Shown here piece by piece: positions 8,149 through 41,024 of a stretch of 64,000 bases of DNA (the stretch's first letter is position 1; each line of letters opens with the position of its first letter). The stretch is taken from positions 1 through 64,000 of the forward strand of contig CADAAA010000010.1 of assembly GCA_902785785.1 (NCBI GenBank). Direction: 5' to 3'. The notes under the pieces are model-generated. The model saw nothing but the letters and a program-made list of their open reading frames with translations, had not been told where the DNA came from and searched no databases. The position numbers were made by a program, and so were the translations under genes. Source of the stretch: an uncultured Bacteroidia bacterium. GTDB taxonomy: Bacteria > Bacteroidota > Bacteroidia > Bacteroidales > UBA932.

Positions 8149-9462
8149 ATGTCAGGAATCAACAAGGTATTCAAGTTCGGAGGAGCGTCCGTGAAGGATG
8201 CCGCCGCAGTCCGCAACCTTGCGGATATCGTCTCGTCAAGGGTGGGTGAAAACATCCTGCTCGTAGTTTCCGCAATGGGCAAGACGACCAACCTTTTGGA
8301 GAAGATACTGGCCGAGTACCGCCGTTGCAACGGCTCTCCCGATCCCGGGACTATCCAGCCGCTGATAGAGTATCATAAAGGCATCATGTCCGGGCTTTTT
8401 CCGGACCTCTTCCATCCTGTGTACGAGACAGTTTCGCATCTCGTCGAAGAGTTGCGCTCACATCTGGAAGATCCGGAGCCGGACTATGACCGGCACTATG
8501 ACCGTACGGTGTGTTTCGGCGAGCTTATCTCCACTACCATAGTCAGCGCTTATCTTGAGAGCAGGGGTATACCTTCGACATGGCTGGATGCACGGGACTA
8601 TGTCATCACGGACCGCGTTTTCCGCGCCGCCGGAGTGGATTGGGATGAGACCGCGCGGCGGATAAAACCGCTGAACGCGGCATATAAACCGGGGGGAGTG
8701 TTCGTTGTCCAGGGCTTTATCGGAGGCACTGCCGACGGGATCGATTCCACCACCCTTGGAAGGGAGGGCTCTGACTATACCGCGGCCATCTTCGCCAACT
8801 GCCTGGATGCGGAGGAAGTAACTATCTGGAAGGATGTCAGCGGACTTCTCAATGCCGATCCCAAGCGTTTCAGCGATACGGTGAAGATTCCCAGGATCTC
8901 CTATTCCGAAGCCATCGAGCTGGCTTTCTACGGGGCTACCATCATTCACCCCAAGACCATCAAACCGTTGCAGAACAAGAACATACGCCTGAAGGTGCAG
9001 TCTTTTCTCGACCCTTCGTCCGATCCTACCGTCATCGACGGCAGCGAGGATGCGCGCTCATCATCACGCGAGACGTCTGTCCCTTCGTATATCGTGAAGG
9101 ACCGCCAGGTACTGGTCTCCATCTCGCCGCGGGATTATTCGTTCATGAACGAGCACAATCTCCAGATAGTTTTCGCCACCTGCGACGAACTGCATATCCA
9201 TGCCAACATGATGCAGACTTCCGCGCTCATGCTCTCCATCTGTTTCGATTATGATGAGGCAAAACTCAAGGGGCTGCTTTCACGTTTGTCAGACCGTTTC
9301 AGCGTGAAATACAATGTCGGTCTGCAACTCTTTACCGTCAGGCACTACCGTGCCGAAGGGCCGACTCCTGTCGAGGAGGCGTTCCTCCGCTGCAAGAACA
9401 TTATAGTCAAGCAGGGTAGCCGCAGTACGCTCCAGTATGTCTTGGAGCCGCTTCTGATCTAG
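8149..9462 (+). CDS. lysC: Aspartate kinase
   Basis: Phosphorylates aspartate, the first step towards lysine, threonine and methionine. Residues 5-12 are the kinase signature KFGGASVK; TTLGREGSDYTAA and WKDVSGLLNADPK are the aspartate- and ATP-binding segments. ACT-like regulatory domains follow from about residue 300. At 437 residues it is a monofunctional enzyme without homoserine dehydrogenase. The start at 8149 is chosen over an upstream in-frame ATG at 8077 because that one precedes the promoter. Its stop overlaps the convergent gene by 4 nt. Confidence 0.93.
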   Translation: MSGINKVFKFGGASVKDAAAVRNLADIVSSRVGENILLVVSAMGKTTNLLEKILAEYRRCNGSPDPGTIQPLIEYHKGIMSGLFPDLFHPVYETVSHLVEELRSHLEDPEPDYDRHYDRTVCFGELISTTIVSAYLESRGIPSTWLDARDYVITDRVFRAAGVDWDETARRIKPLNAAYKPGGVFVVQGFIGGTADGIDSTTLGREGSDYTAAIFANCLDAEEVTIWKDVSGLLNADPKRFSDTVKIPRISYSEAIELAFYGATIIHPKTIKPLQNKNIRLKVQSFLDPSSDPTVIDGSEDARSSSRETSVPSYIVKDRQVLVSISPRDYSFMNEHNLQIVFATCDELHIHANMMQTSALMLSICFDYDEAKLKGLLSRLSDRFSVKYNVGLQLFTVRHYRAEGPTPVEEAFLRCKNIIVKQGSRSTLQYVLEPLLI

Positions 9463-10751
9463 TTCCCGACCGTGAGGTTGATACCGGCCTTGAGCGAGAG
9501 GTTGAAGGGGTTCTCTGTATTGTAGGTCGGAAGTTCCGTCTTGGTGAACCAATAGGAAAGCTCGGGGGCGAGGAATATGCCCACGTGCGGGGTAAAGTCG
9601 TATTGGAAGGCTGCGCTTCCGACTGCAGCCAGTTGGATGCCAGGCTCCTTGAATCTCTGCCCGTCGCGTAATGCCAGGATGCACTTTTCCGCTTTCGCGC
9701 CCGCGCTGAAAGACAGCGAAGTGCGACGCGACATGCCCATACGCCAGCCCGCTTTGACCGGTATGCCCACGAAATGCAGGGACTGGTCCGAAACAGTATG
9801 GGAAGTGGAATGCAGGTACGAATAGTAAAGCCCGCTCTCCAGGAACAAATGGTCGTTCAGGGGCAATGACAATGCGACACCGGCGCTGACCGGTCTTGAA
9901 TGGTTCATGTCCGGTCCGGGATTGTTGGTATAGTATTGGAAATGATTGGACTCCAGCGGAGTTTCGGGATTGTACGAGATGCCGCTGTCCGCGCTGACGA
10001 ATCCTGTGCTGGAACCTAAGGATGCGCCCTTCTTTTCGTTGTTGCTGACGGCGTAATTACCCTGCATGACAGGTAGATCATTGGAAATGAGGGCGTTTGT
10101 GGAAACCATGCCCGCAGCATAGACTGCGGCAGTCAGGCGACGGCCCGGCTTGCGCTTCTTTTCTTCCACATTCAGGTAGTCCTCCAGGCTCATCGCCTTT
10201 TCATCCGCGTCAACGTGCTTTTCCGTCGCAGTCATAGAACTCACAGTACCGGAATCTGTTTTTGTTACGGCGGCAACCGCCGGCTGAGTATATTCTTCTA
10301 CTTTAGGCTGAACGTTTGTGACTTCAACAGACCCAGCGTTAGAGGGGACCTCTTCGATCAGGATGGGAGCTTCCACCATTTTTATCGTCGCGGCGGATCT
10401 CTTTGGAGCGACGCTTTGGGTTTCCGTAGCGGCAGCCGGTTCGGTGACGGCATCCTGCTCCGCGATGACTCTCTGCTCGGCCATGGGCGCAGCTGTGGTC
10501 GGGACGACCTCTATGCGGCCGGCATCCTCCCGGGTCCCTGCGGGACGCAGGAAGAGGATGCCGGCGAGGGCGGCGGCAGCCGCGGCGCCGATGGCGCCGC
10601 CCCAGGCGAGCCGCCGCACTTTGCGCGGCGCGCCCGCCTGCGGCACCGCCGCACCGATCCGCCCCCAGAGCGCATCGGACGGCGTCAGCTCCCGGCCCTC
10701 CAGCCGTTCGCGGACAGCACCGGTCCAGTCGTTATGCTTGTTGTTATCCAT
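9459..10751 (-). CDS. Anti-sigma-like / outer-membrane barrel fusion (dual membrane-spanning type), copy 1
   Basis: 430 residues in four parts: a cytoplasmic stretch of about 45 residues ending in LTPSDALWGRIGAAV; one transmembrane helix (about 48-68); a long Pro/Glu/Ala/Thr-rich, probably disordered linker (70-190); and a C-terminal region with alternating beta strands and aromatic girdles typical of an 8-strand outer-membrane barrel (about 200-430). It overlaps the ECF sigma gene by 8 nt. I infer that the N-terminus binds the sigma factor while the barrel senses the outer membrane. Proteins of this build are known in Bacteroides thetaiotaomicron as dual membrane-spanning anti-sigma factors. 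Two relatives lie in this window, sharing a C-terminal NTEN/RTEN block. Confidence 0.75.
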   Translation of the reverse strand: MDNNKHNDWTGAVRERLEGRELTPSDALWGRIGAAVPQAGAPRKVRRLAWGGAIGAAAAAALAGILFLRPAGTREDAGRIEVVPTTAAPMAEQRVIAEQDAVTEPAAATETQSVAPKRSAATIKMVEAPILIEEVPSNAGSVEVTNVQPKVEEYTQPAVAAVTKTDSGTVSSMTATEKHVDADEKAMSLEDYLNVEEKKRKPGRRLTAAVYAAGMVSTNALISNDLPVMQGNYAVSNNEKKGASLGSSTGFVSADSGISYNPETPLESNHFQYYTNNPGPDMNHSRPVSAGVALSLPLNDHLFLESGLYYSYLHSTSHTVSDQSLHFVGIPVKAGWRMGMSRRTSLSFSAGAKAEKCILALRDGQRFKEPGIQLAAVGSAAFQYDFTPHVGIFLAPELSYWFTKTELPTYNTENPFNLSLKAGINLTVGN

Positions 10752-11292
10752 TGTTCCTTATATATTCCTTGATCTTTCCTGCCAGCAGGGCCCTGGCCCT
10801 GAAATATTGTGAAGAGGATGTTTTTTCCTTGATTCCAAGCATTTTGCCTATCTCCCGATGGGAGTATCCGTCGATGGCGAAAAGGTTGAAAACCGTCCTG
10901 TATCCGTCCGGCAGGTCTTCGACCATCCCCGCCAGGACATCCTCCGGGACGACGGCCACTTCATCCTCATCCACCTCCGCGGATGTACGCGTTTCTTCGA
11001 TAGGAACAGTCCCGTTCCTTTTCTCCTTTCTCAACCAGTCCAGGGATTGGTTGATCACCACCCTCCGTATCCAGGCGTACAGCGATCCCTCTCCGCGATA
11101 GCGGAATGACGAAATGGATGAGAATACTTTGATGAAGGCTTCCTGGAGTACGTCTTCGGCAGCTTCCTGGGATCCGGTGTAGCGCGTACTTAGGGCAAGG
11201 AGCCGTCCTGCACAGCTGTCATACAGCTCCCTGCAGGCCGGCTTCTCTCCTCTTGCACATCGCTCGGAAAGCTGCCGTTCGTCGTACATCAA
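10744..11292 (-). CDS. ECF RNA polymerase sigma factor (partner of barrel copy 1)
   Basis: Sigma-70 family, extracytoplasmic-function group, 182 residues. Region 2 is seen in GSQEAAEDVLQEAFIKVFSS and YAWIRRVVINQSLDW; region 4 in GYSHREIGKMLGIKEKTSSS, the helix-turn-helix that reads the -35 element. The start codon overlaps the serpin stop by 4 nt (ATGA) and its end overlaps the barrel gene by 8 nt, so four genes form one leftward operon. It probably directs transcription of its own operon when released from the anti-sigma protein. Confidence 0.92.
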   Translation of the reverse strand: MMYDERQLSERCARGEKPACRELYDSCAGRLLALSTRYTGSQEAAEDVLQEAFIKVFSSISSFRYRGEGSLYAWIRRVVINQSLDWLRKEKRNGTVPIEETRTSAEVDEDEVAVVPEDVLAGMVEDLPDGYRTVFNLFAIDGYSHREIGKMLGIKEKTSSSQYFRARALLAGKIKEYIRNNG

Positions 11293-12494
11293 CTGACTTT
11301 CTGCCCTATGAACAACACCGCTCCGGTGCTGTTTTCCTGAATGACGAATATGAACGGCCTGTCCGCGATGAACATGACTATGTCCTGCGGATTGCCGTCA
11401 ATCGCATTTTTATACATTCCGACTATGGTAACAGCCGCGGCCTCTGTACCACTCTCATTGACATCAATGAAGGTTTTCTGCTTTACGAATCCGATGTACA
11501 GTCCATCGCTCATCTTGGAGAAATCGGCTTTTGCACAGTCAAAAGCGTCCTCCATCCCCAGCGCGACCAGGACTTTGTCAAGGTCGCTCTGGTACTCGAA
11601 AGAGAATTTCGGCATCTTCAGGAATACGTCCTTAGAGGTGAGCTTGCCATTCAGCTTGTCCAGGATTCCGGCGTCGAAACGCTTTACCGCCTTGCCGAAA
11701 TCCTCCTTTTCGTCGGGCAGGATAACCTTCATGCTGAAAGCTCCGTTGCCGTAAGGGAGATCCACCATCCTGAAACCGTCGTACTCTCCGTAGGAAAGCT
11801 CCGTGGAAAGCTGCATCATCTCCATCCCCGTAGTCTTGCCCGAGATGGTTGTGAACCGATCCTTGAACACCTCCGGGAACGTATACTTCCACGACCCGTT
11901 GAAATACAAGGCATTCATGAGAGCCATCACCAGCTCGGGATCCGGCTCTTCGAGTATGCTGGTTATCTTGCCATGAGTCTTGTCAGAACACCATTTGTTG
12001 ACCTTATCTATCGTGGCCTGTGATGAGAAATCCGCAGGATATACCTCGGATGCATAATACTTCTTGCAGTCGTCGATGAATCCCTGCTTTACCTTTATCT
12101 TGTCATCTATCCATATGGAATTGGCAATCTCGAAGGCCGTACCGGGATCGACCGTCAGCAAGGCATCTATCATCTTACGGTAATACCTGTTTACATCGTC
12201 CGTCGAGAATTTGTCAAACCCCAGGACCTTGGTCATCTGCGATGCGGTCTCACCTGCAGCTCCGGTGGCTGTCATCGACAGCGCCAGGGAGGCGCTCAGG
12301 GGCGAGAACAATACCTGATCCTCCTTGTAGAGTTCGTGGAATACGTTGAAACCGAAGTCGTTGGCGGAAGCGTTGATGCCTTCCTCCGCCTTGGTCAGTG
12401 GAATGGCGCCTTCCGAATACTCAGGATCGTTTTTCCCGCAAGATGCAGCGACAAGAACGAGTGCCGAAAAGGCAAACAAAAACCCCCTTTTCAT
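11289..12494 (-). CDS. Serpin (serine protease inhibitor), lipoprotein, copy 1
   Basis: Suicide inhibitor of proteases, probably tethered to the outer membrane through a lipobox (VAASC, Cys near residue 19). The protein of 401 residues carries the whole serpin fold: NSIWIDDKIKV, the breach-region segment FIDVNESGTEAAAVT, which is the hinge of the reactive loop, and DRPFIFVIQENSTGAVLFIG near the end. Counting from the hinge glycine as P15, the scissile bond falls around residues Y-K-N-A, so the target protease class is uncertain. It is 9 nt downstream of a second serpin and directly coupled to the sigma factor gene. Confidence 0.93.
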   Translation of the reverse strand: MKRGFLFAFSALVLVAASCGKNDPEYSEGAIPLTKAEEGINASANDFGFNVFHELYKEDQVLFSPLSASLALSMTATGAAGETASQMTKVLGFDKFSTDDVNRYYRKMIDALLTVDPGTAFEIANSIWIDDKIKVKQGFIDDCKKYYASEVYPADFSSQATIDKVNKWCSDKTHGKITSILEEPDPELVMALMNALYFNGSWKYTFPEVFKDRFTTISGKTTGMEMMQLSTELSYGEYDGFRMVDLPYGNGAFSMKVILPDEKEDFGKAVKRFDAGILDKLNGKLTSKDVFLKMPKFSFEYQSDLDKVLVALGMEDAFDCAKADFSKMSDGLYIGFVKQKTFIDVNESGTEAAAVTIVGMYKNAIDGNPQDIVMFIADRPFIFVIQENSTGAVLFIGQKVS

Positions 12495-12503
12495 AACAAT
12501 CTT

Positions 12504-13742
12504 CTATTTAACTTTCTGTCCCATAAACAATACCGCTCCCGTACTTATTTCACGTATGACGAACAGGAAAGGACGGTCGACGAAGAAATCCACCGTCGGT
12601 GGCTCTTCCGGTCTGTATGCCGTTGTCACGAATCCTATGAATGTGACAGCTGCGGCTTCGGTACCCTTTTCGTTTACATCTATGAAGGTCTTCTGCTTGA
12701 CCATGGATATCATCAATGGCTTTTCCGCCATAGCGGAGAAATCTGCATCAGAACCATTGAACGCAGCCTTAATGCCTAGTGCCAGGAGTGCATCATTCAA
12801 CATCGTGGTGTAGTCAAAGGTGAATTTCGGCAGCTTGAGGTTCACCTTGGCGGGTCTGGAACTTGCCGCAAGTGCCATAAAGGTAGAGGCATCAAAGCGT
12901 GCCACCGCCTTTGCAAAGTCCTCATCCTTCGGGGGAAGGATGACGTCCATGGTGAAAGCGCCGTTGCCGTATGGCAGGCTTACCATGCCGTAACCGTCGT
13001 ATTCAGCATAAGACTCGCGCTGGGCGGTCATCATTTCGACCTTGGACTTGCTCCCGGACAACGTGGTGAAATCCTCCTTTTTGACCTTTTCGTCGAAATC
13101 GAAAGCCCAGGTCCCCTTGAAATACAATGCGTTGATGAGCGCCATTACCAAATCAGGGTCAGGACCGTCCAAGATGGTAGGGATCTTGCCGTGAGTCTTG
13201 TCCGAGCACCATTTGTTGATCCTATCTACCGTTGCCTGCTCCGAAAAGTCTGCAGGATACACTTCCGATGAAAAATACTTCTTGGTGACGTCGGTGAAGG
13301 ATTTCTTTATGCCGATGCTCTCGTTGGCCCAGATGGAGTTGGCGACCTCGAAGGTGGTCTTGGGATCGGCTTCGAGAAGCGCCGAGATCATCTTCTGGTA
13401 GTAGGAATTCATATCGTCCTTGGCCTGGCCTGCAAAGCCCAGAGTCGAAAGCATCTCTTCCGCAGTCTTGCCCTCGGCTCCGTTTGTCGCCATTGAAAGG
13501 GCGAGGGACAGGCTCAGGGGCGAGATGAGGATATTGTTTCCTGCGTAAATCTTGTGATAGACATCGAATCCGAACTGGTTGGAGGCGGTGTTGATCTCCC
13601 GTTCGGCCTTTGTGAGGGTTATGGGTTCAAAAGGCTTGTCCGGAACATCGTTGCCCGGGTCGTCTGGATTCTGCTTGTTGCATGCACAAAGGGTTCCGAT
13701 GGCAAGCAAACAGACTGCGATGAAACTGACGGTCTTCTTCAT
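12504..13742 (-). CDS. Serpin (serine protease inhibitor), lipoprotein, copy 2
   Basis: Paralogue of the downstream serpin, 412 residues, with its own lipobox (LCAC, Cys near residue 21). The hinge FIDVNEKGTEAAAVT is intact, so it should be inhibitory, and DRPFLFVIREISTGAVLFMG closes the fold. The reactive loop after the hinge differs from copy 1 (FIGFVTTAYRPEEPP versus IVGMYKNAIDGNPQ), so the two probably inhibit different proteases. It is first in the four-gene operon and has a good promoter about 37 nt upstream. Confidence 0.93.
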   Translation of the reverse strand: MKKTVSFIAVCLLAIGTLCACNKQNPDDPGNDVPDKPFEPITLTKAEREINTASNQFGFDVYHKIYAGNNILISPLSLSLALSMATNGAEGKTAEEMLSTLGFAGQAKDDMNSYYQKMISALLEADPKTTFEVANSIWANESIGIKKSFTDVTKKYFSSEVYPADFSEQATVDRINKWCSDKTHGKIPTILDGPDPDLVMALINALYFKGTWAFDFDEKVKKEDFTTLSGSKSKVEMMTAQRESYAEYDGYGMVSLPYGNGAFTMDVILPPKDEDFAKAVARFDASTFMALAASSRPAKVNLKLPKFTFDYTTMLNDALLALGIKAAFNGSDADFSAMAEKPLMISMVKQKTFIDVNEKGTEAAAVTFIGFVTTAYRPEEPPTVDFFVDRPFLFVIREISTGAVLFMGQKVK

Positions 13743-13855: not shown

Positions 13856-15313
13856 TTACTTCAGTGCGTTGAAGTGCTTGAGGTTCCACTTGCAGTTGTC
13901 GCTGTTGAAGTTGAACTTCGCGAGGGACGGGGTGCTGTCGGCAACGGAGACAAGGCAGAGAGCCTCATCGCATCCGGGAACAGCCTTAGGCATGATCCTG
14001 TAGGTACCATCGGTGAGCTGGTCGACACGCCAGAGCTGGGCGTCGGAGCCGTTGAAAGCGGCGCTCTCGAGCTCGCAGTCAGCAGTAGCGGTCAGAGCCC
14101 TGTCGGTACCCTCGATGACGATCTTGAAGTAAGGACCGCCAAGGTAGCCTCCGGCCTCAGGGACAGCTACGAAGGACCACCTCTGGTGAGGACGGTTCAT
14201 GTAGTCGCTGATGCGGATCTCTGTCTTCTCGGGCCAGCCTTCGCAGACCTCCTCGAGCTTCTGGTTCTCGATGACGACGTTGGGCTGGTCGCCTCCGCGG
14301 CCGAAGCCTCTCATGCCGCCTGCGGCGCGGACGAAGTCGACAGCAAGCTCAAGGGCATAGCCCCTGCGGACGGACTCGATCTCATAGGTGCCTTCGGCTA
14401 CGAGCTCGCCGACCTCCGGCCAGTCGTTCTTCCAGAGGAGAGGACGGATGGCGAGAGTGCTGCGGCCGCTGAGGTCGAGGTCAGCCTCCCAGTGGAAGGA
14501 AGCCTTCTCGACACCTTCGTCAACGACATAGCGTCCGAAGTGGCCGGCGCCGAAACGCCTTTCTTCGGCTGCAGCGACCATCTTGCCGCCACCTTCGATC
14601 ATGGTGCGGCCGACATTGTCGATGAACGGTCCGTTAGGGTTCCTGGAACGGCCGCAGATGATATTGTAGGTAGCATTCACACCGTCGCAGCAGGTGCCGT
14701 GGGTGCCAAGCAGATAGTACCAGCCGTTGTTGTACATCATGACGGAAGCCTCGCAGTCGATGGCCACATCGATGGCTTCGTTGCCCGCAAGGCGATGTCC
14801 GGTCTTGGGATCGAGCTCGACCTGGCGGATGAATCCGAAGTAAGTGCCGTAGGTGCAGAAGAGACGTCCGGTGCTGGGGTCGAGGAGGAAGCCGATGTCG
14901 ATGGCGTCGCAGTCCTCGTCAACGAGGGATGCGGCGACTTCGACCGCCTCGGAATATTCGAAGTCCGGGGACTCCGGGTCAAGGGTCTTGTTCCACATGG
15001 TCAGGATGCGGCCTGCGTGGCCACCGCCGAGACCACCGCCAGTGGCGCTGTAGCCGACGAGGTAACGGTCGCCGATCTTGACTGCATCAGGGGCGGCGCC
15101 GCCACCGGGGCGGACTGCTCCGCTGTGCCAGCTCCAGCCGTCCTCGGAAATGAGGCCGCCGCCACCGGTACCGAAAGTGTAATATTTGCCGTCACACTCC
15201 ATGATGGTGGAAGGGTCGTGGATGAAAGGAGCACCGACCTGTGCAATGGCGGTCTTGGAAGCGAAGAGGGATACGAGGGCAACGGCCCCCAGAAGTGCTA
15301 TCCTTGATTTCAT
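13856..15313 (-). CDS. Secreted GH43-like glycosidase with C-terminal beta-trefoil-like domain, copy 1
   Basis: 485 residues with a cleavable signal (ending near TAIAQ). The first 300 residues resemble five-blade propeller enzymes of GH43 and related arabinanase families: an early FIHDPSTIMECDGKYYTFGT with the characteristic Asp, the glycine-rich WHSGAVRPGGGAAPD, and DEDCDAIDIGFLLDP. The last 150 residues (ALTATADCELESAAF, AQLWRVDQLTDGTYRI) look like a ricin-type carbohydrate-binding fold. A close paralogue lies at 26.7-28.2 kb. Its partner gene is 22 nt upstream. Exact substrate unknown; arabinan or related plant glycans are plausible. Confidence 0.8.
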   Translation of the reverse strand: MKSRIALLGAVALVSLFASKTAIAQVGAPFIHDPSTIMECDGKYYTFGTGGGGLISEDGWSWHSGAVRPGGGAAPDAVKIGDRYLVGYSATGGGLGGGHAGRILTMWNKTLDPESPDFEYSEAVEVAASLVDEDCDAIDIGFLLDPSTGRLFCTYGTYFGFIRQVELDPKTGHRLAGNEAIDVAIDCEASVMMYNNGWYYLLGTHGTCCDGVNATYNIICGRSRNPNGPFIDNVGRTMIEGGGKMVAAAEERRFGAGHFGRYVVDEGVEKASFHWEADLDLSGRSTLAIRPLLWKNDWPEVGELVAEGTYEIESVRRGYALELAVDFVRAAGGMRGFGRGGDQPNVVIENQKLEEVCEGWPEKTEIRISDYMNRPHQRWSFVAVPEAGGYLGGPYFKIVIEGTDRALTATADCELESAAFNGSDAQLWRVDQLTDGTYRIMPKAVPGCDEALCLVSVADSTPSLAKFNFNSDNCKWNLKHFNALK

Positions 15314-19442: not shown

Positions 19443-20738
19443 CTATAGGTTGAATCTGAGACCTACCTCGTAGTTCATCATGAAAGGACGCTCGGTACGG
19501 ATGCTGAGGGGCTGTCCGCAGTCGAAGTAGTAGCGGGCGCTGGGGTCGAGATAGAGTCCGAGGTGCTCGCCGAGGAGGAACTCGAGACCGAGTCCCGCGG
19601 CCGCAGACCACTGGAATCCGTTAACACTTTCCTTGTAGGAGATGTCTCCGGGATTGCTCTGGATGCGGAAACGGCTAACGAGGCCCTTCTCCACACTTCC
19701 TCCTCCCCATGCATAGAAGCGGAGGTTCCTGCTGTCGAAGATGTTGAAATACAGGTTGAGCGGGATGCCGATATAATGGATGTCGTTGACTATCTCGGAG
19801 TTGATGTTACGGACCATATCGCCGTTGTCGTTCACCTCGGTATAGACACCGTTGAAAGTCCTGGAGAGCTTGGACCAGTTGATGCCGGTGCCCACTGCCC
19901 AGCGGTCCGAGAGATCGAAGCGGACTCCGAGACCGAAAGTGATGGGTATGGAGAAGGTGGAAGACCCTTTGTCCTCAACGCCGGTGCGTGTCTTGATGCC
20001 GGAGGCGGGTGCGCGCATCTGGCGGATGTCTTGACCGCTGAAATCATTGGTCATGGCATTGCCGGCGACAACGAGTGACGGGAGGTGCCTGCCTTCTTCA
20101 GCGTCGGTATCCTCCGGCCATGCGAACGGGTCGTCCGGAGTGCCGGTGATGGCGGTACGGGTGTCCGTCTCCGCAGGGCGGGCAACGGGATCTTGCACGA
20201 GCGAAGCGCTTTCTGGAGTCGCAACCACTTCATTTTCATTGGATACCGCCTCTGTCTCTACTGCGACCTCCGAAGGGGTTTCGACAACGGCATCCGCAGT
20301 CTCTTCCTCCGCAGGGACGAAAGCATCGGCGGGGACGATCTCGGACGGGACGGTTCCCGATACGGTGCTCCTGGAACTGCGTGCCGGGACATCGGCAAGC
20401 GCTGTACCGGCGGAAACTATCTGCTCCTCGATGGTGGGAACGGTCTCCTCGGCGGTCATGTCCATGCTTGCGGCCTGCTCCTTCACCGCCGTCGCGGTCA
20501 GGTCTGGCTCGGCGGCACGGTCGCGGCCGAGGAATACGAAGATGCCCGACAGGACGGCTGCGGCGGCTGCGAAGCCGACGGCAGCCCGCCGCCACCTGAG
20601 GGCGACGACCTTCCTGCGATCCCGGCGGTCGAGCTCGTCGCTCACAGCATGCCAGATCCGCGAAGGAACTTCTTCCTCCGCGTCCTGAAGCATCCGCTTC
20701 AATTCGAGATCGAAATCTGTATACTTGTCGTTCTGCAT
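19443..20738 (-). CDS. Anti-sigma-like / outer-membrane barrel fusion (dual membrane-spanning type), copy 2
   Basis: 431 residues with the same plan as the 9.5-kb copy: a cytoplasmic N-terminus with EEEVPSRIWHAVSDEL, one membrane helix (about 48-68, FAAAAAVLSGIFVFLG), a 150-residue acidic Glu/Val/Thr/Ala-rich linker likely to be disordered in the periplasm, and a barrel-like C-terminus (about 235-431) ending in MMNYEVGLRFNL with a terminal aromatic/hydrophobic strand. It begins one nucleotide after the ECF sigma stop. The function as anti-sigma factor and outer-membrane sensor is inferred from layout and operon position. Confidence 0.73.
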   Translation of the reverse strand: MQNDKYTDFDLELKRMLQDAEEEVPSRIWHAVSDELDRRDRRKVVALRWRRAAVGFAAAAAVLSGIFVFLGRDRAAEPDLTATAVKEQAASMDMTAEETVPTIEEQIVSAGTALADVPARSSRSTVSGTVPSEIVPADAFVPAEEETADAVVETPSEVAVETEAVSNENEVVATPESASLVQDPVARPAETDTRTAITGTPDDPFAWPEDTDAEEGRHLPSLVVAGNAMTNDFSGQDIRQMRAPASGIKTRTGVEDKGSSTFSIPITFGLGVRFDLSDRWAVGTGINWSKLSRTFNGVYTEVNDNGDMVRNINSEIVNDIHYIGIPLNLYFNIFDSRNLRFYAWGGGSVEKGLVSRFRIQSNPGDISYKESVNGFQWSAAAGLGLEFLLGEHLGLYLDPSARYYFDCGQPLSIRTERPFMMNYEVGLRFNL

Positions 20739-20739: not shown

Positions 20740-21345
20740 TTACTTTCTGTTCTTTATCTTGTTCTGCAACATGACCCTGGCGCGCTGGAGCTGGGAGCGG
20801 GAAGTGGCTTCCGTTATGCCCAGCGTTTCGCTGATCTCCTTGTGCGTGTAACCTTCGATCAGGAACATGTTGAAAACGGTCCTGAATCCCGGCGGCAATT
20901 CGGCTATCATACCCATAAGCTCCTTGTACGATATGCTTTGCAGGGCTCCGGGATCGTCGCTCGAAAGGCTTCGGGCGTATTCGATGTCCTCGCTCTGGCG
21001 CATGACGTCGCTTTTCCTAAGCGTCATGAGTGCAGTATTGACAAAGACCTTGCGAGCCCAACCCTCGAAGGATCCCTCCCCCGTGTAGCTGTCCAACTTT
21101 GAAAACAGTGATATGAAGCCTTCCTGTAGGACATCCTCTGCCGCTTCCCTTGCGCCCATGTAGCGCAGGCAAACGGGGAACATCCTGGCGGACAACCTGT
21201 CGAACAACACCTTCTGTGCAGCCCTGTCGCCTTTCTTGCAAAGTGCGATGATCTGCTGCTCGTTCAGGGTCGTCACGGTCTCCGAAGTTGGTTTCTGGGC
21301 TGTCACCCGTGTGATAAGATGCGTTTTGTCACCGAAATGTTGCAT
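20740..21345 (-). CDS. ECF RNA polymerase sigma factor (partner of barrel copy 2)
   Basis: 201 residues. Region 2: GAREAAEDVLQEGFISLFSK and FEGWARKVFVNTALM; region 4: GYTHKEISETLGITEATSRS. The N-terminal 25 residues (up to TTLNEQQ) are longer than usual, and a GTG at 21279 could be the real start; the ATG at 21345 is the only upstream ATG. It sits at the head of a sigma / anti-sigma-barrel / tsaE operon and is divergent from the TPR gene, from which it is separated by 95 nt. Confidence 0.91.
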   Translation of the reverse strand: MQHFGDKTHLITRVTAQKPTSETVTTLNEQQIIALCKKGDRAAQKVLFDRLSARMFPVCLRYMGAREAAEDVLQEGFISLFSKLDSYTGEGSFEGWARKVFVNTALMTLRKSDVMRQSEDIEYARSLSSDDPGALQSISYKELMGMIAELPPGFRTVFNMFLIEGYTHKEISETLGITEATSRSQLQRARVMLQNKIKNRK

Positions 21346-26668: not shown

Positions 26669-26736
26669 TTCATCTGTGTGATATGTCGCATTTTATTGCT
26701 ATATTGTAACGAATGGCTCAAAATCATCTTCTGAAT

Positions 26737-28197
26737 ATGGAAAAGCTTATGAGAACAGTTGCCGGAGCCGTGGCAGTCATGCTTGCTTCTGTTTCTGCAT
26801 TCGCGCAGACCGGCAATCCCTACATCCATGACCCTTCGACTATTGTCGAATGTGACGGGAAATACTACACTTTCGGGACAGGTGGAGGAGGCCTCATTTC
26901 CGAGGACGGCTGGACCTGGAATCCCGGCGCCGTCCGTCCCGGCGGCGGTGCGGCTCCCGATGCGATGAAGATAGGCGACCGTTATCTCGTCGTCTATGGG
27001 ACCACCGGCGGCGGGACCGGCGGCGGCCATGCCAGCAGGATCGTGACGATGTGGAACAAGACCCTCGATCCCGAGTCCCCGGATTTCGCATATTCAGAGC
27101 CGGTGACGGTATACGAATCCCTCGTGGACGAAGATTTCAATGCCATAGACCCTGGCCTCATGCTGGATCCCACCACCGGCCGGCTCTGGCTGACCTGCGG
27201 AACATATTTCGGACATATCCGGCAGGTCGAGATCGATCCTAAGACCGGGGCACGTGTAGAGGGCACGGAGGCCATCGATATAGGCCGTAATCTCGAAGCA
27301 TCCGTCATGATGTACCGCGATGGCTGGTACTATATGCTTGGAACCCATGGGACCTGCTGCGACGGCGTCAATTCCACATACAACATAGTCGCTGGACGCT
27401 CGAGGAGCCCCAGGGGACCTTTCATCGACAATGTGGGACGCTCGATGATCCAAGGCGGCGGACGGGCCGTGATCACGACTGAAGGCCGTCTGGTAGGCCC
27501 CGGCCATTTCGGCCGTTACATCGAGGAGGAAGGTGTAGAGAAAATGTCGTTCCACTGGGAGGCGGACATGGACCAGAGCGGCAGGAGCGTGCTTGGGATC
27601 AGGCCCCTCCTCTGGAAGGACGGCTGGCCGGAGGCCGGCGACGCCTTTGTCCCCGGCACCTACGAGATCAAGTCCCTCAGGAGCGGATATGCCCTGGAGG
27701 TCGCCGTGGACTTTATCCGTGCACAAGGCGGCATGCGTGTCGCCCGCAATGCCACGGATGTCCCGAAGGTCAGCATCGAGGCGCAGAAGCTTGAGGATGT
27801 GATAGATACATGGCCGGAAGGTGTCCTTGAAGTCAGGAACGGCTACTATATGGCCCGCCCCTGGCAGAGGTGGTCGATAATCCCCGTGCCTGAGGCTGGT
27901 GGTACCCTTGCGGGGCCCTACTACAAGATCGTCATCGAAGGCACCGGGAAAGCCCTCGCCGCGACTCCCGACGCAGAGGTCGAGGCCGTCCCCGAGTTCA
28001 CGGGCGCTCCTGAGCAGCTTTGGCGGATAGACCAGCTCACCGACGGAACGTTCCGCATCATGCCGAAGGAGGTACCCGGCCACAGCGAGCCGCTGGCCCT
28101 GGTCTGCTTCGGCGATTCCTCGGCTACGCTGGCGAAATTCGATTTCGGCAGCGACAACTGCAAGTGGGACTTCAAGCGGTATTCTCCCATAAAGTAA
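26737..28197 (+). CDS. Secreted GH43-like glycosidase with C-terminal beta-trefoil-like domain, copy 2
   Basis: Close paralogue of the 13.9-kb gene over its full length: YIHDPSTIVECDGKYYTFGT, LISEDGWTWNPGAVRPGG and LGTHGTCCDGVNSTYNI are nearly identical, as is the C-terminal EQLWRIDQLTDGTFRIMPK. The signal peptide ends near SAFAQ. In-frame ATGs exist at 26713, 26737 and 26749; the first lies at the predicted transcription start of a -7-like TATATTGT (26700-26707), so I prefer 26737. The partner gene follows 28 nt downstream. Substrate unknown. Confidence 0.8.
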   Translation: MEKLMRTVAGAVAVMLASVSAFAQTGNPYIHDPSTIVECDGKYYTFGTGGGGLISEDGWTWNPGAVRPGGGAAPDAMKIGDRYLVVYGTTGGGTGGGHASRIVTMWNKTLDPESPDFAYSEPVTVYESLVDEDFNAIDPGLMLDPTTGRLWLTCGTYFGHIRQVEIDPKTGARVEGTEAIDIGRNLEASVMMYRDGWYYMLGTHGTCCDGVNSTYNIVAGRSRSPRGPFIDNVGRSMIQGGGRAVITTEGRLVGPGHFGRYIEEEGVEKMSFHWEADMDQSGRSVLGIRPLLWKDGWPEAGDAFVPGTYEIKSLRSGYALEVAVDFIRAQGGMRVARNATDVPKVSIEAQKLEDVIDTWPEGVLEVRNGYYMARPWQRWSIIPVPEAGGTLAGPYYKIVIEGTGKALAATPDAEVEAVPEFTGAPEQLWRIDQLTDGTFRIMPKEVPGHSEPLALVCFGDSSATLAKFDFGSDNCKWDFKRYSPIK

Positions 28198-35205: not shown

Positions 35206-35751
35206 ATGACCGACAAGGAGATCCTCGAGCTGTACCACGGCGGACAGCAGCAGAGGGCGTTCAACGAGATCGTCAAGAATTACAGCGAGCGGCTCTACTG
35301 GCACGTCCGCTCGCTTGTATGCTCCCACGAGGACACCGATGACCTCCTTCAGGACATTTTCGTGAAAGTATGGACTGCGCTTCCTTCCTTCAGGGGGGAT
35401 GCGCAGTTCTTTACATGGCTCTACAGGATCGCCACCAACGTGGCGCTGAACTTCCTGAACAAGCAGAAAGTACGTTCCGCGCTCTCGTTCGAGAGCCTTT
35501 CGGACAGTCTCGAGCGCAAGGTCGACGAGGATCCGTGGTTCAACGGCAACGAAGTCGAACTCGAGCTCAGCAAGGCCATACAGAAACTTCCCCAGAAGCA
35601 GAAGGCTGTTTTCTGCATGAGATACTATCAGGAGCTCTCGTACGAGGAGATCTCCGAGATCATGGGCACTTCGGTCGGGGCGCTTAAAGCTTCGTACCAT
35701 TTTGCTTATGAAAAGATTAAAAAGGAGTTGAAGGAGAAAATTTCCGTTTGA
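35206..35751 (+). CDS. ECF RNA polymerase sigma factor (with CpxP/Spy-like operon)
   Basis: 181 residues. Region 2: CSHEDTDDLLQDIFVKVWTA and FTWLYRIATNVALNFL; region 4: ELSYEEISEIMGTSVGALK, with the S-V-G-A-L-K ending typical of a Bacteroidota RpoE group. Start at 35206 directly abuts the transketolase stop. The next two genes encode a single-span membrane protein and a periplasmic CpxP/Spy-like protein, a layout recalling envelope-stress or metal-response sigma systems. Confidence 0.93.
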   Translation: MTDKEILELYHGGQQQRAFNEIVKNYSERLYWHVRSLVCSHEDTDDLLQDIFVKVWTALPSFRGDAQFFTWLYRIATNVALNFLNKQKVRSALSFESLSDSLERKVDEDPWFNGNEVELELSKAIQKLPQKQKAVFCMRYYQELSYEEISEIMGTSVGALKASYHFAYEKIKKELKEKISV

Positions 35752-35791
35752 TTTTAAACCTGCTTCAAACATTCATGTCTAAGGATCGGTT

Positions 35792-36199
35792 ATGAAAGAG
35801 ATGAATAATATTTACAAAGTGCCGGACGGCTATTTCGATTCGCTTCAGAAGCGTCTCGAGGCCATTCCTTCGCAGCATACGGAGGAGCGTGCTTCGGTTG
35901 TCGCCATGCCGCTGTGGACGAGGGTGCGCCCTTATGTCGCGCTTGCAGCATGTATGCTCATGGCGTTTTTCATCGGGAACTTCTTCCTTGGACGGAACCA
36001 GGCTTCCGCACCGGCGGAGTTCGGCTTGCAGGACTACTACATGGCTGACCTCATACCGGTCACCAATCCATACGCCATCTATGACGATGCTCCTATGGAC
36101 CTCTATACGATGGAGAGCAGTTCCGAGGATGACGTCGTGCAGTATCTGATCTCCTCCGGTACCTCGGTGGATTATATCGCTTACCTTTTGAATCAATAG
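35792..36199 (+). CDS. Single-span membrane protein, putative anti-sigma factor
   Basis: 135 residues. The N-terminal 50 residues are cytoplasmic in appearance (YKVPDGYFDSLQKRLEAIP, a segment common at the start of small Bacteroidota anti-sigma proteins), then one transmembrane helix (about 50-66, LAACMLMAFFIGNFFLG), then a periplasmic acidic tail ending ISSGTSVDYIAYLLNQ. Position between the sigma factor and the CpxP/Spy-like gene supports an anti-sigma role; I see no zinc-binding ZAS motif, so this is inference. Confidence 0.65.
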   Translation: MKEMNNIYKVPDGYFDSLQKRLEAIPSQHTEERASVVAMPLWTRVRPYVALAACMLMAFFIGNFFLGRNQASAPAEFGLQDYYMADLIPVTNPYAIYDDAPMDLYTMESSSEDDVVQYLISSGTSVDYIAYLLNQ

Positions 36200-36202
36200 G
36201 AT

Positions 36203-36742
36203 ATGAGAAATTTATTCAGAGCCATCTTCGTTTCCGTCCTCATGGCGGTATCCGTTGCAGCCTTCGGCCAGAACAACGGCATGGGAGACTTCGCCCGTCA
36301 GTGGCAGGAGCGGATCGAGAGCGAAAAGATAGCTTTCCTCACCAACGAGATGTCCCTCACCCCCAAGGAGGCCCAGACTTTCTGGCCCATTTACAACCAG
36401 GCCCAGAAGGAGCAGCGCGAAGCCATCGAGGCTTCCATGAAGGCCTTCGGCGAGCTTGACAAGGCTATCCGTGACGGCAAGACCGGCAAGGAGATCAATA
36501 CCCTTCTGGAGAAATATACCAGGGCGATTGACAGTCAGGATGTCTCTTCCAGGTATCTCAAGGAGTATCTCAAGATACTTCCTGCCGAGAAGGTGGCCAA
36601 GCTCTTCCTTGGCGAGGAGAGGTTCCGCCAGTCCCAGATCAACAGGCTCCGCCAGCCCATGGGAGGGCAGCCGATGGGGCAGCCGGGCAATTTCGGCAAC
36701 GGCAACCGCCGGCAGCAGCAGAAGTCCGACAGCAACAAATGA
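36203..36742 (+). CDS. Periplasmic CpxP/Spy-like protein (LTXXQ-type)
   Basis: 179 residues: a signal peptide (to about AFGQN), then an all-helical domain with the LTPKEAQTFWPIYNQ segment that corresponds to the LTxxQ repeat of CpxP, Spy and CnrX, and a Gln/Gly/Asn-rich tail (RQPMGGQPMGQPGNFGNGN). Such proteins bind misfolded proteins or metals and keep envelope sigma systems off. It is 3 nt downstream of the putative anti-sigma gene and is followed by a strong terminator. Confidence 0.8.
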   Translation: MRNLFRAIFVSVLMAVSVAAFGQNNGMGDFARQWQERIESEKIAFLTNEMSLTPKEAQTFWPIYNQAQKEQREAIEASMKAFGELDKAIRDGKTGKEINTLLEKYTRAIDSQDVSSRYLKEYLKILPAEKVAKLFLGEERFRQSQINRLRQPMGGQPMGQPGNFGNGNRRQQQKSDSNK

Positions 36743-36803: not shown

Positions 36804-36807
36804 GACC

Positions 36808-37479: not shown

Positions 37480-37481
37480 CA

Positions 37482-37513
37482 GTTGTTTTTTTCTTGAAAG
37501 AGCCGTATATTTG
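37482..37513 (+). promoter_or_regulatory. Promoter of tRNA-Pro
   Basis: GTTG at 37482-37485, a 20-nt spacer, and TATATTTG at 37506-37513. The -7 element is exact. Confidence 0.65.
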
Positions 37514-37540: not shown

Positions 37541-37546
37541 ACATCT

Positions 37547-37620
37547 CGGGGTGTGGCGCAGTTGGCTAGCGCATCTGGTTTGGGACCAGAGGGTCGTGTG
37601 TTCGAGTCACATCACCCCGA
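37547..37620 (+). tRNA. tRNA-Pro, anticodon TGG
   Basis: 74 nt that fold as a cloverleaf. Acceptor CGGGGTG pairs with CACCCCG; the anticodon stem TCTGG/CCAGA encloses the loop TTTGGGA with anticodon TGG (34-36); the T arm holds GTTCGAGTC. C1-G72 with A73 is the proline identity pattern. The CCA end is not encoded (the next bases are CAT), so it must be added by nucleotidyltransferase. Confidence 0.96.
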
Positions 37621-37631
37621 CATAACAAAGT

Positions 37632-37670
37632 AAGGAACCTGCTAATTATCAGCAAGTTCCTTTCTTTTTG
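37632..37670 (+). terminator. Intrinsic terminator after tRNA-Pro
   Basis: AAGGAAC-C-TGCT pairs with AGCA-A-GTTCCTT (one mismatch), followed by TTTCTTTTTG. Confidence 0.8.
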
Positions 37671-37689
37671 CTCTGTATTATGCTCTGTA

Positions 37690-38223
37690 TTATTTGAAGT
37701 AATCGGTCAGTTCACCGGTCACGAAGGTAAGGTCGCCGTTCAGGATGTAGTTGTTGAAAACTGCATTGTCGAAACGAAGAGTGACACTGGAACCGTCGTA
37801 TTCCTTGAGGTAGATGTGCCCGGTAAACGAATAGGATGAATCTCCTGAGTAACTCGAGAGCGGGAGGCATAACAATGTCCTTTCGAATTCCGGTTCCGCT
37901 CCTTTTTTCAGGCCAGCTTTTTTCATGTAAAGGCTTAAAAAGAAAGAATCATCGACCATCCTTCCATTGGTGAAAGCATGAAGATGAATGCATCCTTCGA
38001 TGTCGGAAGGATCTCTTAGGAGAGCGACCCTCCATGCAAGGACGGATTCTTCGCCATCACTGGACTTGGCTTCAATTGTCCGGGTCAGCTTGCCGGTGGT
38101 GAAACTGAACTGAACGTCCTTGGTAAGTTCTTCATCTGATAGCCTGTCGCCGGACTCCTTGTCGCAAGCGGAAAATGCGAGGAGCCCCAGACATATGGCG
38201 ATAAATGGGAACAATCTTTTCAT
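37690..38223 (-). CDS. Lipoprotein of unknown function in the third sigma operon (second cargo gene)
   Basis: 177 residues with lipobox LLAFSAC (Cys near residue 20). After a hydrophilic start (DKESGDRLSDEELTKD) the remainder alternates short beta-type segments such as VTLRFDNAVFNNYILNGDLT; no known domain is recognised. It is 11 nt downstream of another lipoprotein of the same operon. Base composition is lower in GC than the neighbours, hinting at a more variable or recently acquired gene. Confidence 0.68.
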   Translation of the reverse strand: MKRLFPFIAICLGLLAFSACDKESGDRLSDEELTKDVQFSFTTGKLTRTIEAKSSDGEESVLAWRVALLRDPSDIEGCIHLHAFTNGRMVDDSFFLSLYMKKAGLKKGAEPEFERTLLCLPLSSYSGDSSYSFTGHIYLKEYDGSSVTLRFDNAVFNNYILNGDLTFVTGELTDYFK

Positions 38224-38234
38224 AATGATAAAAG

Positions 38235-38954
38235 CTATTTGTTAAACAATCCGTCTCTTAGAGTGAACAGGTGCATCATTTCTACTATATTGTCATCGAA
38301 CTTGATACCGAGTCCCAGGCGTTCGTTCATGTATGCAAGGGGAATCAGGGAATCGTTTGAGAATGAACTGTCAGCCTTGCGCTCAGCCATTTTCCGAGAG
38401 ACGATAGTCTTGAGTCTCTCCTTGTTGGAGTTGGAGTCCATGCCGGGAACAAGTCTTGTACCGAGGAATAATTCGAGGAATACTTCGTCCATAAGGGATA
38501 TGACCTCATAGTCCGAAGAAACTGTAAGGTTGATATCGATCCTTGTCCTATCAAATATATCTATCAGTACGGTGGCTGCATCCTTCCTTGCGGCGAGTGC
38601 CTGGTGGAGACTGCTTCTGTCGTATATCATTTTGACAGGTACATCCCAATAATTGTATGCATATACGATACCGTTCAACGGGTAATGAAGGATGGAGAGC
38701 CCCAGAGCCCTCGTAGTCTTGGCATTCAGGACTTCAGGCGATACTTCGCATGCACTGAAACGTTCCTCCAGTCCTTCTAAATGCGTCCATGCGCCGTAGT
38801 CGGTTTCACGGAGAAAGACAATAGGGGTATCGTCTTCTCCGGGATCGCTGTTCCATGGATTCGGATGGTCGGTGTCCATATTGGAACATGCAGATGCCAA
38901 GACAACAGCCATCAGCAGTATGTGGAGTTTATTTATCATGGCCCTCATTGTCAA
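38235..38954 (-). CDS. Lipoprotein of unknown function in the third sigma operon (first cargo gene)
   Basis: 239 residues; the lipobox is VLASAC (Cys near residue 23 from ATG 38954; later in-frame ATGs at 38948 and 38939 shorten the leader). I do not recognise a family. A predicted mixed alpha/beta body includes RLKTIVSRKMAERKADSSFS. Its start overlaps the stop of the anti-sigma/barrel gene by 4 nt (ATGA), so it is translationally coupled to it. A role in sensing or responding to the same envelope signal is inferred from that coupling only. Confidence 0.68.
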   Translation of the reverse strand: MTMRAMINKLHILLMAVVLASACSNMDTDHPNPWNSDPGEDDTPIVFLRETDYGAWTHLEGLEERFSACEVSPEVLNAKTTRALGLSILHYPLNGIVYAYNYWDVPVKMIYDRSSLHQALAARKDAATVLIDIFDRTRIDINLTVSSDYEVISLMDEVFLELFLGTRLVPGMDSNSNKERLKTIVSRKMAERKADSSFSNDSLIPLAYMNERLGLGIKFDDNIVEMMHLFTLRDGLFNK

Positions 38955-40483
38955 TGGTTTATGTCGAAGAGAATGCCTGCTCTGAGGTTGAGTCCGAGGC
39001 GGTTCTCAGTACGATATGAAGTAAGGTTGGTCCTCGTGAAGTAGTAGGAAATGTCAGGCTGAAAGTAGATCCACGCGTTCTTTGAGAGTCTGGACCGTGC
39101 ACCTACATTGAAGGATCCTGACCATTGAAGGTCTCGTTCCTTGACACGCATCCCTCCGAGGCTTGCTTTCAGACACTTCTCTACTTTCCCACCGATCCCG
39201 GTGTAGAATTCGACCGGACCTGCGTTGAACAGGCTGTAATCCACCCGGAGTGGAATGCCGGCAAAATGCATGACGGTGTGGATATCGTCGAGTCTGGAAT
39301 GCAGGTAAGAATACTCGAGACCGCTCTCGACAGAGAGTCTGTCTGACAGCCAGTACCTTGCACTCAGGCCGAAACTCAAGGGAAGGTCATGAACGTATTC
39401 CTTTTGCATGATCACTCCTTTCGAGTTGTTCAGGAAGCTGTTTGAGGCGACATTTGACGATTTGGTGACGAGGCCTCCTGCAAGGCTTGAGACGGTGACG
39501 GTGGTGGGGGCGCCGTCGGCCATGGAGGCCGCGCTTATGCCGGCCGTCAGGCGGTGCGCCCTCCTGGCCGGCGTCGCCTCTTCGGCATCGTAGAAGTCTG
39601 CACTGACGTGCTCCGGATCCGCTTCTCTGAGCACCGAGGACTCGCTCGTCATGCCGCTGTGCTCAGAATCGGTCTCGCTGAGCACCGAGGACTCATTTGC
39701 CGTGCCTCCGTGCTCAGAATTGGCGTTTCGGAGCACCGAGTGCTCGTTTGCCGTGCCTCCGTGCTCGGAATTGGCGTTTCGGAGCACCGAGGACTCGCTC
39801 GTCATGCCGCTGTGCTCAGAACCGGTCTCGCTGAGCACCGAGTGCTCGTTTGCCGTGCTTCCGTGCTCAGAATTGGCGTTTCGGAGCACCGACAACTCGT
39901 TCGTCATGCCGCTGTGCTCAGAACGGCTCTCGCTGAGCACAGAGGACTCATTTGCCATGCTACTGTGCTCGGAATTGGCGTTTCGGAGCACCGGAGGCTC
40001 GTTTGCCGTGCCTCCGTGCTCAGAATTGGCGTTTCGGAGCACCGAGGACTCGCTCGTCATGCCGTTGTGCTCAGAACCGGTCTCGCTGAGCACCGAGGAC
40101 TCATTTGCCGTGCCTCCGTGCTCGAAATGGGCTTCGCTGAGTACCGAGGGCTCATTTGCCGTGCCTCTGTGCTCAGAACGGGTATCTCTGAGCACCGGGG
40201 TATCGTTCGTCAGACCGTCGCTCTGTTCGGGGACTTGTGCTACGAGCCCGGGAGCTTCCCGCACTTCTATCAGGGTCTCCCCGTTGTCGGGGCGGTTCAG
40301 GAAGAAGACGCCGCCGGCGAGCGGCAGGGCGAGGGCTGCGGCCGCAATGGCGGCCCTGCGCCTCGCTGCGGCGCGCCGCAGCCGCCCGGCGACGGCCTCC
40401 CAGCCGCCGTCAGTCGGCCGGACCTCCTCCGGGAAGCTTTCCCGGAAAGCGTCGGTCCATTCTTTTTGCGTATCAGTCCTCAT
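38951..40483 (-). CDS. Anti-sigma-like / outer-membrane barrel fusion (dual membrane-spanning type), copy 3, with repeat linker
   Basis: 510 residues. The N-terminus (RPTDGGWEAVAGRLRRAA) matches the anti-sigma-like part of the other two copies; one membrane helix follows (about 45-62). Residues 86-289 are twelve tandem copies of a 17-residue unit of the form SEHxGxxxExSVLxxxx, filling the periplasmic linker. The barrel (about 300-510) ends with SYYFTRTNLTSYRTENRLGL, similar to copy 1 (YWFTKTELPTYNTENPF). It overlaps the sigma gene by 11 nt. Anti-sigma function is inferred. Confidence 0.75.
   Translation of the reverse strand: MRTDTQKEWTDAFRESFPEEVRPTDGGWEAVAGRLRRAAARRRAAIAAAALALPLAGGVFFLNRPDNGETLIEVREAPGLVAQVPEQSDGLTNDTPVLRDTRSEHRGTANEPSVLSEAHFEHGGTANESSVLSETGSEHNGMTSESSVLRNANSEHGGTANEPPVLRNANSEHSSMANESSVLSESRSEHSGMTNELSVLRNANSEHGSTANEHSVLSETGSEHSGMTSESSVLRNANSEHGGTANEHSVLRNANSEHGGTANESSVLSETDSEHSGMTSESSVLREADPEHVSADFYDAEEATPARRAHRLTAGISAASMADGAPTTVTVSSLAGGLVTKSSNVASNSFLNNSKGVIMQKEYVHDLPLSFGLSARYWLSDRLSVESGLEYSYLHSRLDDIHTVMHFAGIPLRVDYSLFNAGPVEFYTGIGGKVEKCLKASLGGMRVKERDLQWSGSFNVGARSRLSKNAWIYFQPDISYYFTRTNLTSYRTENRLGLNLRAGILFDINH
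39617..40228 (-). repeat. Twelve tandem 51-bp repeats encoding the periplasmic linker
   Basis: 612 bp, exactly 12 x 51 bp, in frame with the barrel-fusion gene. The unit translates as 17 residues. Two main versions alternate irregularly: one with GGTANE and one with SGMTSE. The first unit (residues 86-102) is the most diverged, as is usual at the edge of an expanding array. The other two barrel fusions in the window have linkers of similar length but without repeats. Confidence 0.95.
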
Positions 40484-41024
40484 GATTGTACTCCTTAATC
40501 TTCTTTGCCAAAATCACCCTTGCCCTTGAAAGGCTGCAGGATGCGCTGTTCTCCTTGATCCCGAGCGTCGAGGCTATCTCTTTGTGCGACAGGCCTTCCA
40601 AGCAGTGCAGCTTGAATACCGTCCGATATCCTTCCGGCAGTTCCTCGACCATCGCCTGCAGTCTTTCGACCGGGATTGAGGCCGTCTCTCCGTAGTCGGG
40701 CGGATCCTCGGCTATCTGCTCCAGTCCCGAATCGTCCCGGATCAGTGCCGCCAGTCTCCGGCGCTTCTTCATGGAGTCGAAGCATAGGTTGAGCGTCACC
40801 CGTGCCATCCATGAGTAGAGGGAGCCTTGGCGCTCCCAGCGGAACTTGCGTATGACCCGGAAAATCTTTATGAATGCATCCTGCATGAGATCTTCTGCGG
40901 AATCCCTGTCCGCAGCGTATCTCATGCACAGGGCCAGCAGGCGGGGACTGTACGTACGATACAGTTCCTCGCGGGCTTTGGCATCCCCCCGGGCGCATAG
41001 TCTGGCCAGTTCCGCTTCTTGCAT
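40473..41024 (-). CDS. ECF RNA polymerase sigma factor (partner of barrel copy 3)
   Basis: 183 residues from the ATG at 41024. Region 2: DRDSAEDLMQDAFIKIFRVI and YSWMARVTLNLCFDSM; region 4: GLSHKEIASTLGIKENSASC. An in-frame ATG at 41129 would add 35 residues but lies upstream of the -7 box at 41028-41035 and overlaps the neighbouring terminator, so I reject it. The ATG is only 3 nt from the -7 element. It heads an operon with the barrel fusion and two lipoproteins. Confidence 0.92.
   Translation of the reverse strand: MQEAELARLCARGDAKAREELYRTYSPRLLALCMRYAADRDSAEDLMQDAFIKIFRVIRKFRWERQGSLYSWMARVTLNLCFDSMKKRRRLAALIRDDSGLEQIAEDPPDYGETASIPVERLQAMVEELPEGYRTVFKLHCLEGLSHKEIASTLGIKENSASCSLSRARVILAKKIKEYNHED

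Follow-up and report, generated by a model that had tools for sequence, protein, structure and literature searches.

Background

Dual membrane-spanning anti-sigma (Dma) factors are a recent class of regulators. The describing paper gives their build as an anti-sigma N-terminus, a membrane helix, a long disordered tether, and a C-terminal barrel, with the gene for an extracytoplasmic function (ECF) sigma factor of the ECF21 group adjoining, and reports that the vesicle phenotype of a dma2 mutant of Bacteroides thetaiotaomicron requires its sigma gene (PMC13088901). Further marks of the family are its restriction to Bacteroidota and the release of the sigma factor when the Dma gene is deleted. 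A second body of work concerns repetitive extragenic palindromes (REPs) and the REP-associated tyrosine transposases (RAYTs). REPs within open reading frames (ORFs) are known, and for Thauera and R. conorii, one survey describes larger clusters that encode 43–82 residues (PMC3733652). Likewise, tnpA genes of subclass 2.6 in Bacteroidetes are described as having “atypical secondary structures” at their flanks with copies elsewhere (PMC6006769). Here, we describe three ECF sigma/Dma-type gene pairs in a stretch of 64,000 nt (the window) from contig CADAAA010000010.1 (GCA_902785785.1), part of the 2.36-Mb genome (G000) of a bacterium related to rumen Bacteroidales. We hold with good confidence that the three modules are Dma sigma/anti-sigma pairs and that the tether of the third is mostly an in-frame array of a transposase-linked, REP/RAYT-like repeat family.

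Three ECF sigma factor genes, each directly followed by a Dma-type gene

All six genes lie on the minus strand, and in each pair the sigma gene directly precedes its partner. In pair 1, the sigma factor (10744–11292; Pfam Sigma70_r2 6.7e-16, Sigma70_r4_2 2.8e-12) overlaps by 8 nt a partner of 430 aa (9459–10751) with an OMP_b-brl_2 match at residues 281–354 that falls below the Pfam cut-off (1.6e-5). The sigma factor of pair 2 (20740–21345; Sigma70_r4_2 1e-14, Sigma70_r2 5.5e-12) is separated by 1 nt from a partner of 431 aa (19443–20738), the only one of the three to exceed the Pfam cut-off for the barrel (OMP_b-brl_2, 1.1e-11). Pair 3 consists of a sigma factor (40473–41024; Sigma70_r2 4.3e-16, Sigma70_r4_2 3.5e-15), with an ATG start at 41024 while the ORF opens at 41129, and a partner of 510 aa (38951–40483) that it overlaps by 11 nt and that has a C-terminal OMP_b-brl match below the cut-off (6.5e-4), a barrel that the predicted fold and structural matches given below also show. 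The layout is common to all partners: a brief N-terminal stretch leads into a single membrane helix, which is followed by a tether and, at the C-terminus, a barrel, the hydrophobic 19-mers beginning at residues 50, 52, and 44 in pairs 1, 2, and 3, respectively. An earlier note, made from this sequence alone, had claimed three such abutting or overlapping pairs at these positions, partners of 430–510 residues, and W-x-x-V/I (N-terminal) and TE(N/R) (C-terminal) motifs common to all three; each of these observations was confirmed. It had also predicted a C-terminal barrel and named the lack of one as an outcome that would speak against it; that outcome did not occur. A further Pfam match over the cut-off in the pair 3 partner, to the U71 tegument protein family (PF17474, 6.3e-6, residues 262–279), falls within the repeat array described below and was taken as chance.

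The association with a sigma factor extends well beyond the window. All 53 Dma rows collected have a same-strand sigma gene within 900 bp upstream or fused to them (two rows repeat a record, leaving 51/51 distinct), and two records, L128:3750–5444 and L132:1844–3529, hold natural single-ORF ECF sigma-Dma fusions of 564 and 561 aa that fall in the branch of pair 3. The likeness that the earlier note saw to the dual membrane-spanning anti-sigma factors of B. thetaiotaomicron is thus supported, by sequence for three partners and by predicted structure for one, and the evidence supports placing the three window pairs in the published Dma family, with an N-terminus that would bind the sigma factor.

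Predicted structure and a possible mode of action

AlphaFold2 models were made for the pair 3 partner and the L132 fusion. The former, from an alignment of 11 rows, has helices at residues 4–14 and 25–62 followed by eight strands at 312–507; the mean predicted local distance difference test score (pLDDT) is 57, with barrel blocks mostly above 80 and most of the tether (63–307) below 50. Among the top Foldseek matches of this model are the barrels of OmpA (7.3e-8, the best), OmpW (2.8e-6), and NspA (1.1e-5). The L132 model (20 rows, mean pLDDT 73) combines a mostly confident sigma factor, a helix at 190–225 that contains the membrane segment, a tether at 226–327 with pLDDT below 50, and a barrel, and matches both ECF sigma factors and OmpW/OmpA in Foldseek.

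Such a build suggests that the cognate ECF sigma factor is held at the inner membrane by the first ~40 residues of the partner, that the single helix crosses this membrane, and that the disordered tether spans the periplasm to an eight-strand barrel in the outer membrane, which may sense either a ligand or the state of that membrane. If the barrel were lost or altered, the sigma factor would then be freed, most likely through proteolysis at the inner membrane. The natural fusions favor proteolysis, as a sigma factor covalently joined to a membrane helix would not be freed by a change of shape alone.

An in-frame palindromic array forms most of the pair 3 tether

Some 196 of the 510 residues of the pair 3 partner are encoded by twelve palindromic 51-bp units (39608–40195, minus strand; tether residues 97–292), identified by Tandem Repeats Finder, which reports a 51-bp period with 11.3 copies at 39624–40197, together with a palindrome scan. 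The array was missed in the earlier note. The core of the unit is the palindrome GTGCTC-N15-GAGCAC, exact in 11 units and with a single mismatch in one, and all twelve units are in frame, each unit adding 17 whole codons (51 = 3 x 17) and so leaving the reading frame intact. Within the array, 102 bp are duplicated at 94% identity.

A scan of the genome found 33 exact copies of the palindrome and none of its reversed-pattern control: 11 in the pair 3 gene, 12 on contig C12, four each on C3 and C5, and two on C1. When one-mismatch neighbors are counted, the copies form eight clusters, and all of them follow a 51-bp grid. The seven clusters outside the pair 3 gene, with 22 exact palindromes, are intergenic or lie under short ORFs of 109–136 aa, mechanical ORF calls that we have not taken as genes. 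Two of them, on C12 (12 copies), stand on both sides of a transposase-like gene of 313 residues (C12:11201–12142). Members of its family share as invariant positions only M1, H76, H78, and Y134 (33 rows), and six of 33 members have a Y1_Tnp match (best 7.8e-5), the member beside the GTGCTC arrays not being among them. The C12 gene shares with REP/RAYT systems the HUH and Tyr residues and the palindromes both at the gene and dispersed. At E 1e-5, the family is found in 33 of 37 genomes of the same genus and in none of 24 genomes of other genera. The family members compared, 35 in all, comprise a single locus from each genome and seven from G000; in 22 of them, a flanking array with a period of 51 (15 members), 50 (2), or 52 bp (5) beat shuffled sequence, in a test that detects periods rather than palindromes. 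In the five members with inspected flanks (G000 C12:10758–12539, C5:134500–138500, C5:147000–151000, and C6:67000–71200, i.e., L061, L110, L111, and L112, and L117 on G004:C13), the arrays are palindromic, with five different palindromes and a period of ~50–52 bp. The array in the pair 3 gene belongs to a repeat family of this lineage, from which it appears to derive. A GTAG (or CGTC) tag was not seen beside the palindromes in the inspected units, of which no systematic scan was made. In two GTGCTC arrays of G000 (L077, C3:149597–150996, and L078, C5:178645–180839), the spacer holds a second palindrome, AGCACAAA...TTTTGTGCT, which resembles the palindrome beside another transposase-like gene at C6:68 kb.

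The scan for the palindrome covered G000 and 36 further handles, together 35 distinct genome records (G008 being G061 and G024 being G362). Arrays occur only in G000 and in G066, the uncultured Bacteroidales RUG470, which has 17 copies, with one step of 52 bp and one copy isolated; ten other records have one or two isolated copies, and the reversed control matches once each in G042 and G066. RUG470 shares the transposase locus with its flanking arrays, the protein being 97% identical. Its ortholog of the pair 3 partner (L124), with a barrel 75% identical, is cut within the tether by the end of its contig; it retains one exact GTGCTC unit in the same frame. The array is absent from the other nine loci of the pair 3 branch, several of which carry different short repeats in its place, and it was probably gained on the branch leading to G000 and RUG470, or else retained only there.

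Tether length and repeats in other Dma genes

Crude estimates of tether length range from 104 to 344 residues over 50 rows (the three window pairs included and one record present twice), with pair 3, at 248 residues, the third longest. Periodicity above that of codon-shuffled sequence was flagged in ten of 33 Dma rows, with periods of 15–102 bp; among these ten, the GTGCTC array is known in pair 3 only. Two Dma genes of the pair 2 branch show other patterns: L034:1498–3018 has a 45-bp tandem repeat in the tether, and L050:1498–2739 has a weak 51-bp period (0.54 versus 0.48 when shuffled).

Tether repeats that recur elsewhere in the same genome were found in five host genomes (G006, G062, G063, G061, and G064), in a comparison that covered tethers. 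The motif GTCATYCYGAGCG-N3-4-CGAAGRA, for which the control gave 0 matches in all genomes, has 47 copies in G006, host of a pair 2-branch gene, and two of these are in the tether; G062 and G063 have 17 and nine copies, with one tether copy each, and there are eight in G065, three in G064, and one each in G061, G066, and G000; the sole copy in G061 is the tether’s own, hence the motif is not dispersed there. With both strands merged and at most one mismatch, G061 and G064 each have six places with a CCCCGA...TCGGGG palindrome; G062 has four, G063 three, and G006 and G065 one each, that of G065 being the tether’s own, and G000 and G066 have none (control 0). It is conceivable, though we think it improbable, that a genus-wide system of HUH/Tyr transposase-like genes, in which every gene has a separate palindrome arrayed at a fixed period of 50–52 bp, feeds in-frame sequence into Dma tethers, and that gain and loss of 17-codon units, which keep the frame intact, would make tether length a mutable setting of a sensor linking the outer membrane to RNA polymerase.

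Weighing the reading against its alternatives

Several observations weigh against the reading of the pair 3 module as a Dma pair with a tether built from transposase-linked repeats. The N-terminal segment, which would hold the sigma factor, is modeled at a low pLDDT of 51–65. Taken alone, the C12 transposase-like protein has no meaningful match in Pfam, NCBIfam, or the PDB, the best match of the family profile to solved IS200 transposases is at E 0.11, and 13 of 35 family members are without a flagged 50–52 bp array. The array may also have begun as a single short insertion that was then multiplied in tandem, and the role of the transposase is therefore one of association. Finally, differences among the twelve units amount to 0.41, 0.22, and 0.38 at codon positions 1–3 (0.34, 0.19, and 0.30 without the last unit), with no third-position excess. 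The test thus gave no sign of selection on the array at the protein level; since position 2 is the least variable, there may nevertheless be room for some constraint.

An alternative that we judge unlikely is that the array is under selection in the gene, its unit number setting the length or stiffness of the tether and so tuning the sensor. The array is in frame in two species, the pair 3 tether is among the longest, and the exact copies at the orthologous transposase locus number five on the left and seven on the right in G000 versus two and eight in G066, so arrays of the GTGCTC family do change in length. Against this stand the wide span of tether estimates across the family and the lack of a third-position excess, and in RUG470 the gene is cut by the contig end, leaving one exact unit in view. 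Tolerance is the likeliest reason why the array persists, as the same span and the same codon pattern suggest: a period of 17 codons keeps the frame, and a tether that does not fold offers no structure to disrupt.

Less probable still is that the array grew out of a native coding segment by ordinary slippage or unequal crossing-over, with no relation to the transposase-linked repeats. Plain tandem repeats are known in other Dma genes, such as that of L034, and the array holds the internal duplication described above; however, the genome’s seven other clusters have the same palindromic arms, the same loop length, and the same 51-bp grid, against a control of 0, and the in-gene array occurs in the two genomes that own the repeat family, G000 and G066. 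As to the pairs themselves, the short N-terminal segments of the partners, in which no zinc anti-sigma motif was seen by eye, would suit ordinary eight-strand outer membrane proteins that keep their signal anchor uncleaved and do not bind the adjacent sigma factor. That reading is very improbable, given the sigma gene directly upstream or fused in every row, the natural fusions in two records, and the published dependence of the dma2 vesicle phenotype on the sigma gene (PMC13088901).

A tether assembled from transposase-linked repeats, the reading we prefer, would bear on the signal and the release mechanism of Dma factors, as would the natural fusions: a tether that accepts ~196 repeat-encoded residues would argue for a loose polymer and not a measured rod. 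The transposase-linked, fixed-period arrays in turn offer a clear case of mobile-element-like sequence forming a large part of a regulatory protein.

Paralogs and distribution

A profile of the window partners revealed five Dma-type genes in the genome. The two beyond the window, both missed in the earlier note, each adjoin a sigma gene. Three pairs do lie within 32 kb, as the earlier note had pointed out; three of five random positions fell within 31 kb in 0.5% of simulations, a figure to be read in light of the window having been chosen after the fact. In the tree, pairs 1, 2, and 3 fall in separate branches, that of pair 2 being shared with 12 other rows of the same genus, and the window pairs are therefore old paralogs lying close together; a recent tandem duplication of the three modules is ruled out by the same branching. 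Sigma region 2 matches occur at 17 places in the genome, one of them below the cut-off, and that in an ORF of 302 residues probably marks the main sigma factor. The window also holds a fourth ECF sigma gene (35206–35751, plus strand) that is not part of a Dma pair and is followed, within 35206–36742, by two small ORFs, neither of which has a Pfam match above the cut-off.

Searches for Dma genes covered the phylum of the host, together with one scan of genome contigs with the pair 3 barrel. In the first 41 genomes, the Dma profile matched 28, i.e., 22 of 25 in the same genus and six of 16 that belong to the order but to other genera. The search of the phylum, with at most six candidates scored per genome, matched 85 of 296 genomes, a number that includes barrel-only matches in short frames; among the matches listed, the N-terminal and barrel regions match in one frame in at least 28 genomes besides G000.

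Neighboring genes

The commonest neighbors in related loci are a divergent gene for a TPR protein next to pair 2 (21441–23162, plus strand; TPR matches), with a related gene in eight of 13 loci of the branch, and a lipoprotein-like gene downstream of pair 3 (37690–38223, minus strand), with a related gene in six of ten. A second lipoprotein-like gene (38235–38954, minus strand) adjoins the pair 3 Dma gene and was found solely in L124 (1/10); neither lipoprotein-like gene has a match in Pfam. TsaE is present in four of 13 pair 2-branch loci, and a serpin adjoins a pair 1-like gene in one of six loci, two of the six being the other pairs of G000 itself. Absences of neighbors mean little because many of the related loci are short. 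The earlier note had pointed to different cargo genes for the three pairs; the meaning of this is limited, as TsaE and IspF are housekeeping genes.

Two tandem serpins (11289–13742) lie directly upstream of the pair 1 sigma gene, and a serpin also adjoins a related Dma gene in L023. Two similar genes combining GH43 and a ricin-type lectin (13856–15313 and 26713–28197) stand ~11 kb apart in the window.

Comparison with known systems

With Dma1/Dma2 and Das1/Das2 of B. thetaiotaomicron (PMC13088901), the window pairs have in common the four-part build and the adjoining sigma gene, a likeness of described build rather than of aligned proteins. They differ in that five pairs occur in one 2.36-Mb genome, three of them within 32 kb, in that one tether is encoded by a repeat array, and in their neighbor genes. 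NigD-like genes adjoin sigma-Dma pairs in the related loci L024 and L029, and nigD1 is reported there as induced in the dma1 mutant of B. thetaiotaomicron (PMC13088901). Like Dma3, a sigma-Dma fusion in the same account, L128 and L132 each join a sigma factor at the N-terminus and a barrel at the C-terminus in one ORF; both lie outside the window and belong to the pair 3 branch.

No published description of fixed-period arrays of this transposase-linked kind was found in a limited literature search. The described REP/RAYT systems (PMC3733652; PMC6006769) share with the present case an HUH and Tyr protein between palindromes, dispersed copies, and palindromes in ORFs, whereas here the palindromes are in tandem with a period of 50–52 bp and encode 196 residues within a membrane-spanning sensor, compared with 43–82 for the larger published clusters. 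The palindromic elements that Rickettsia carries in ORFs (cited in PMC3733652) are likewise read in frame, but they are other repeats in another host, and the array described here is a long tandem one. Neither Dma pairs nor intragenic REPs are new in kind; what is new is their combination, the length of the array, and its strict period.

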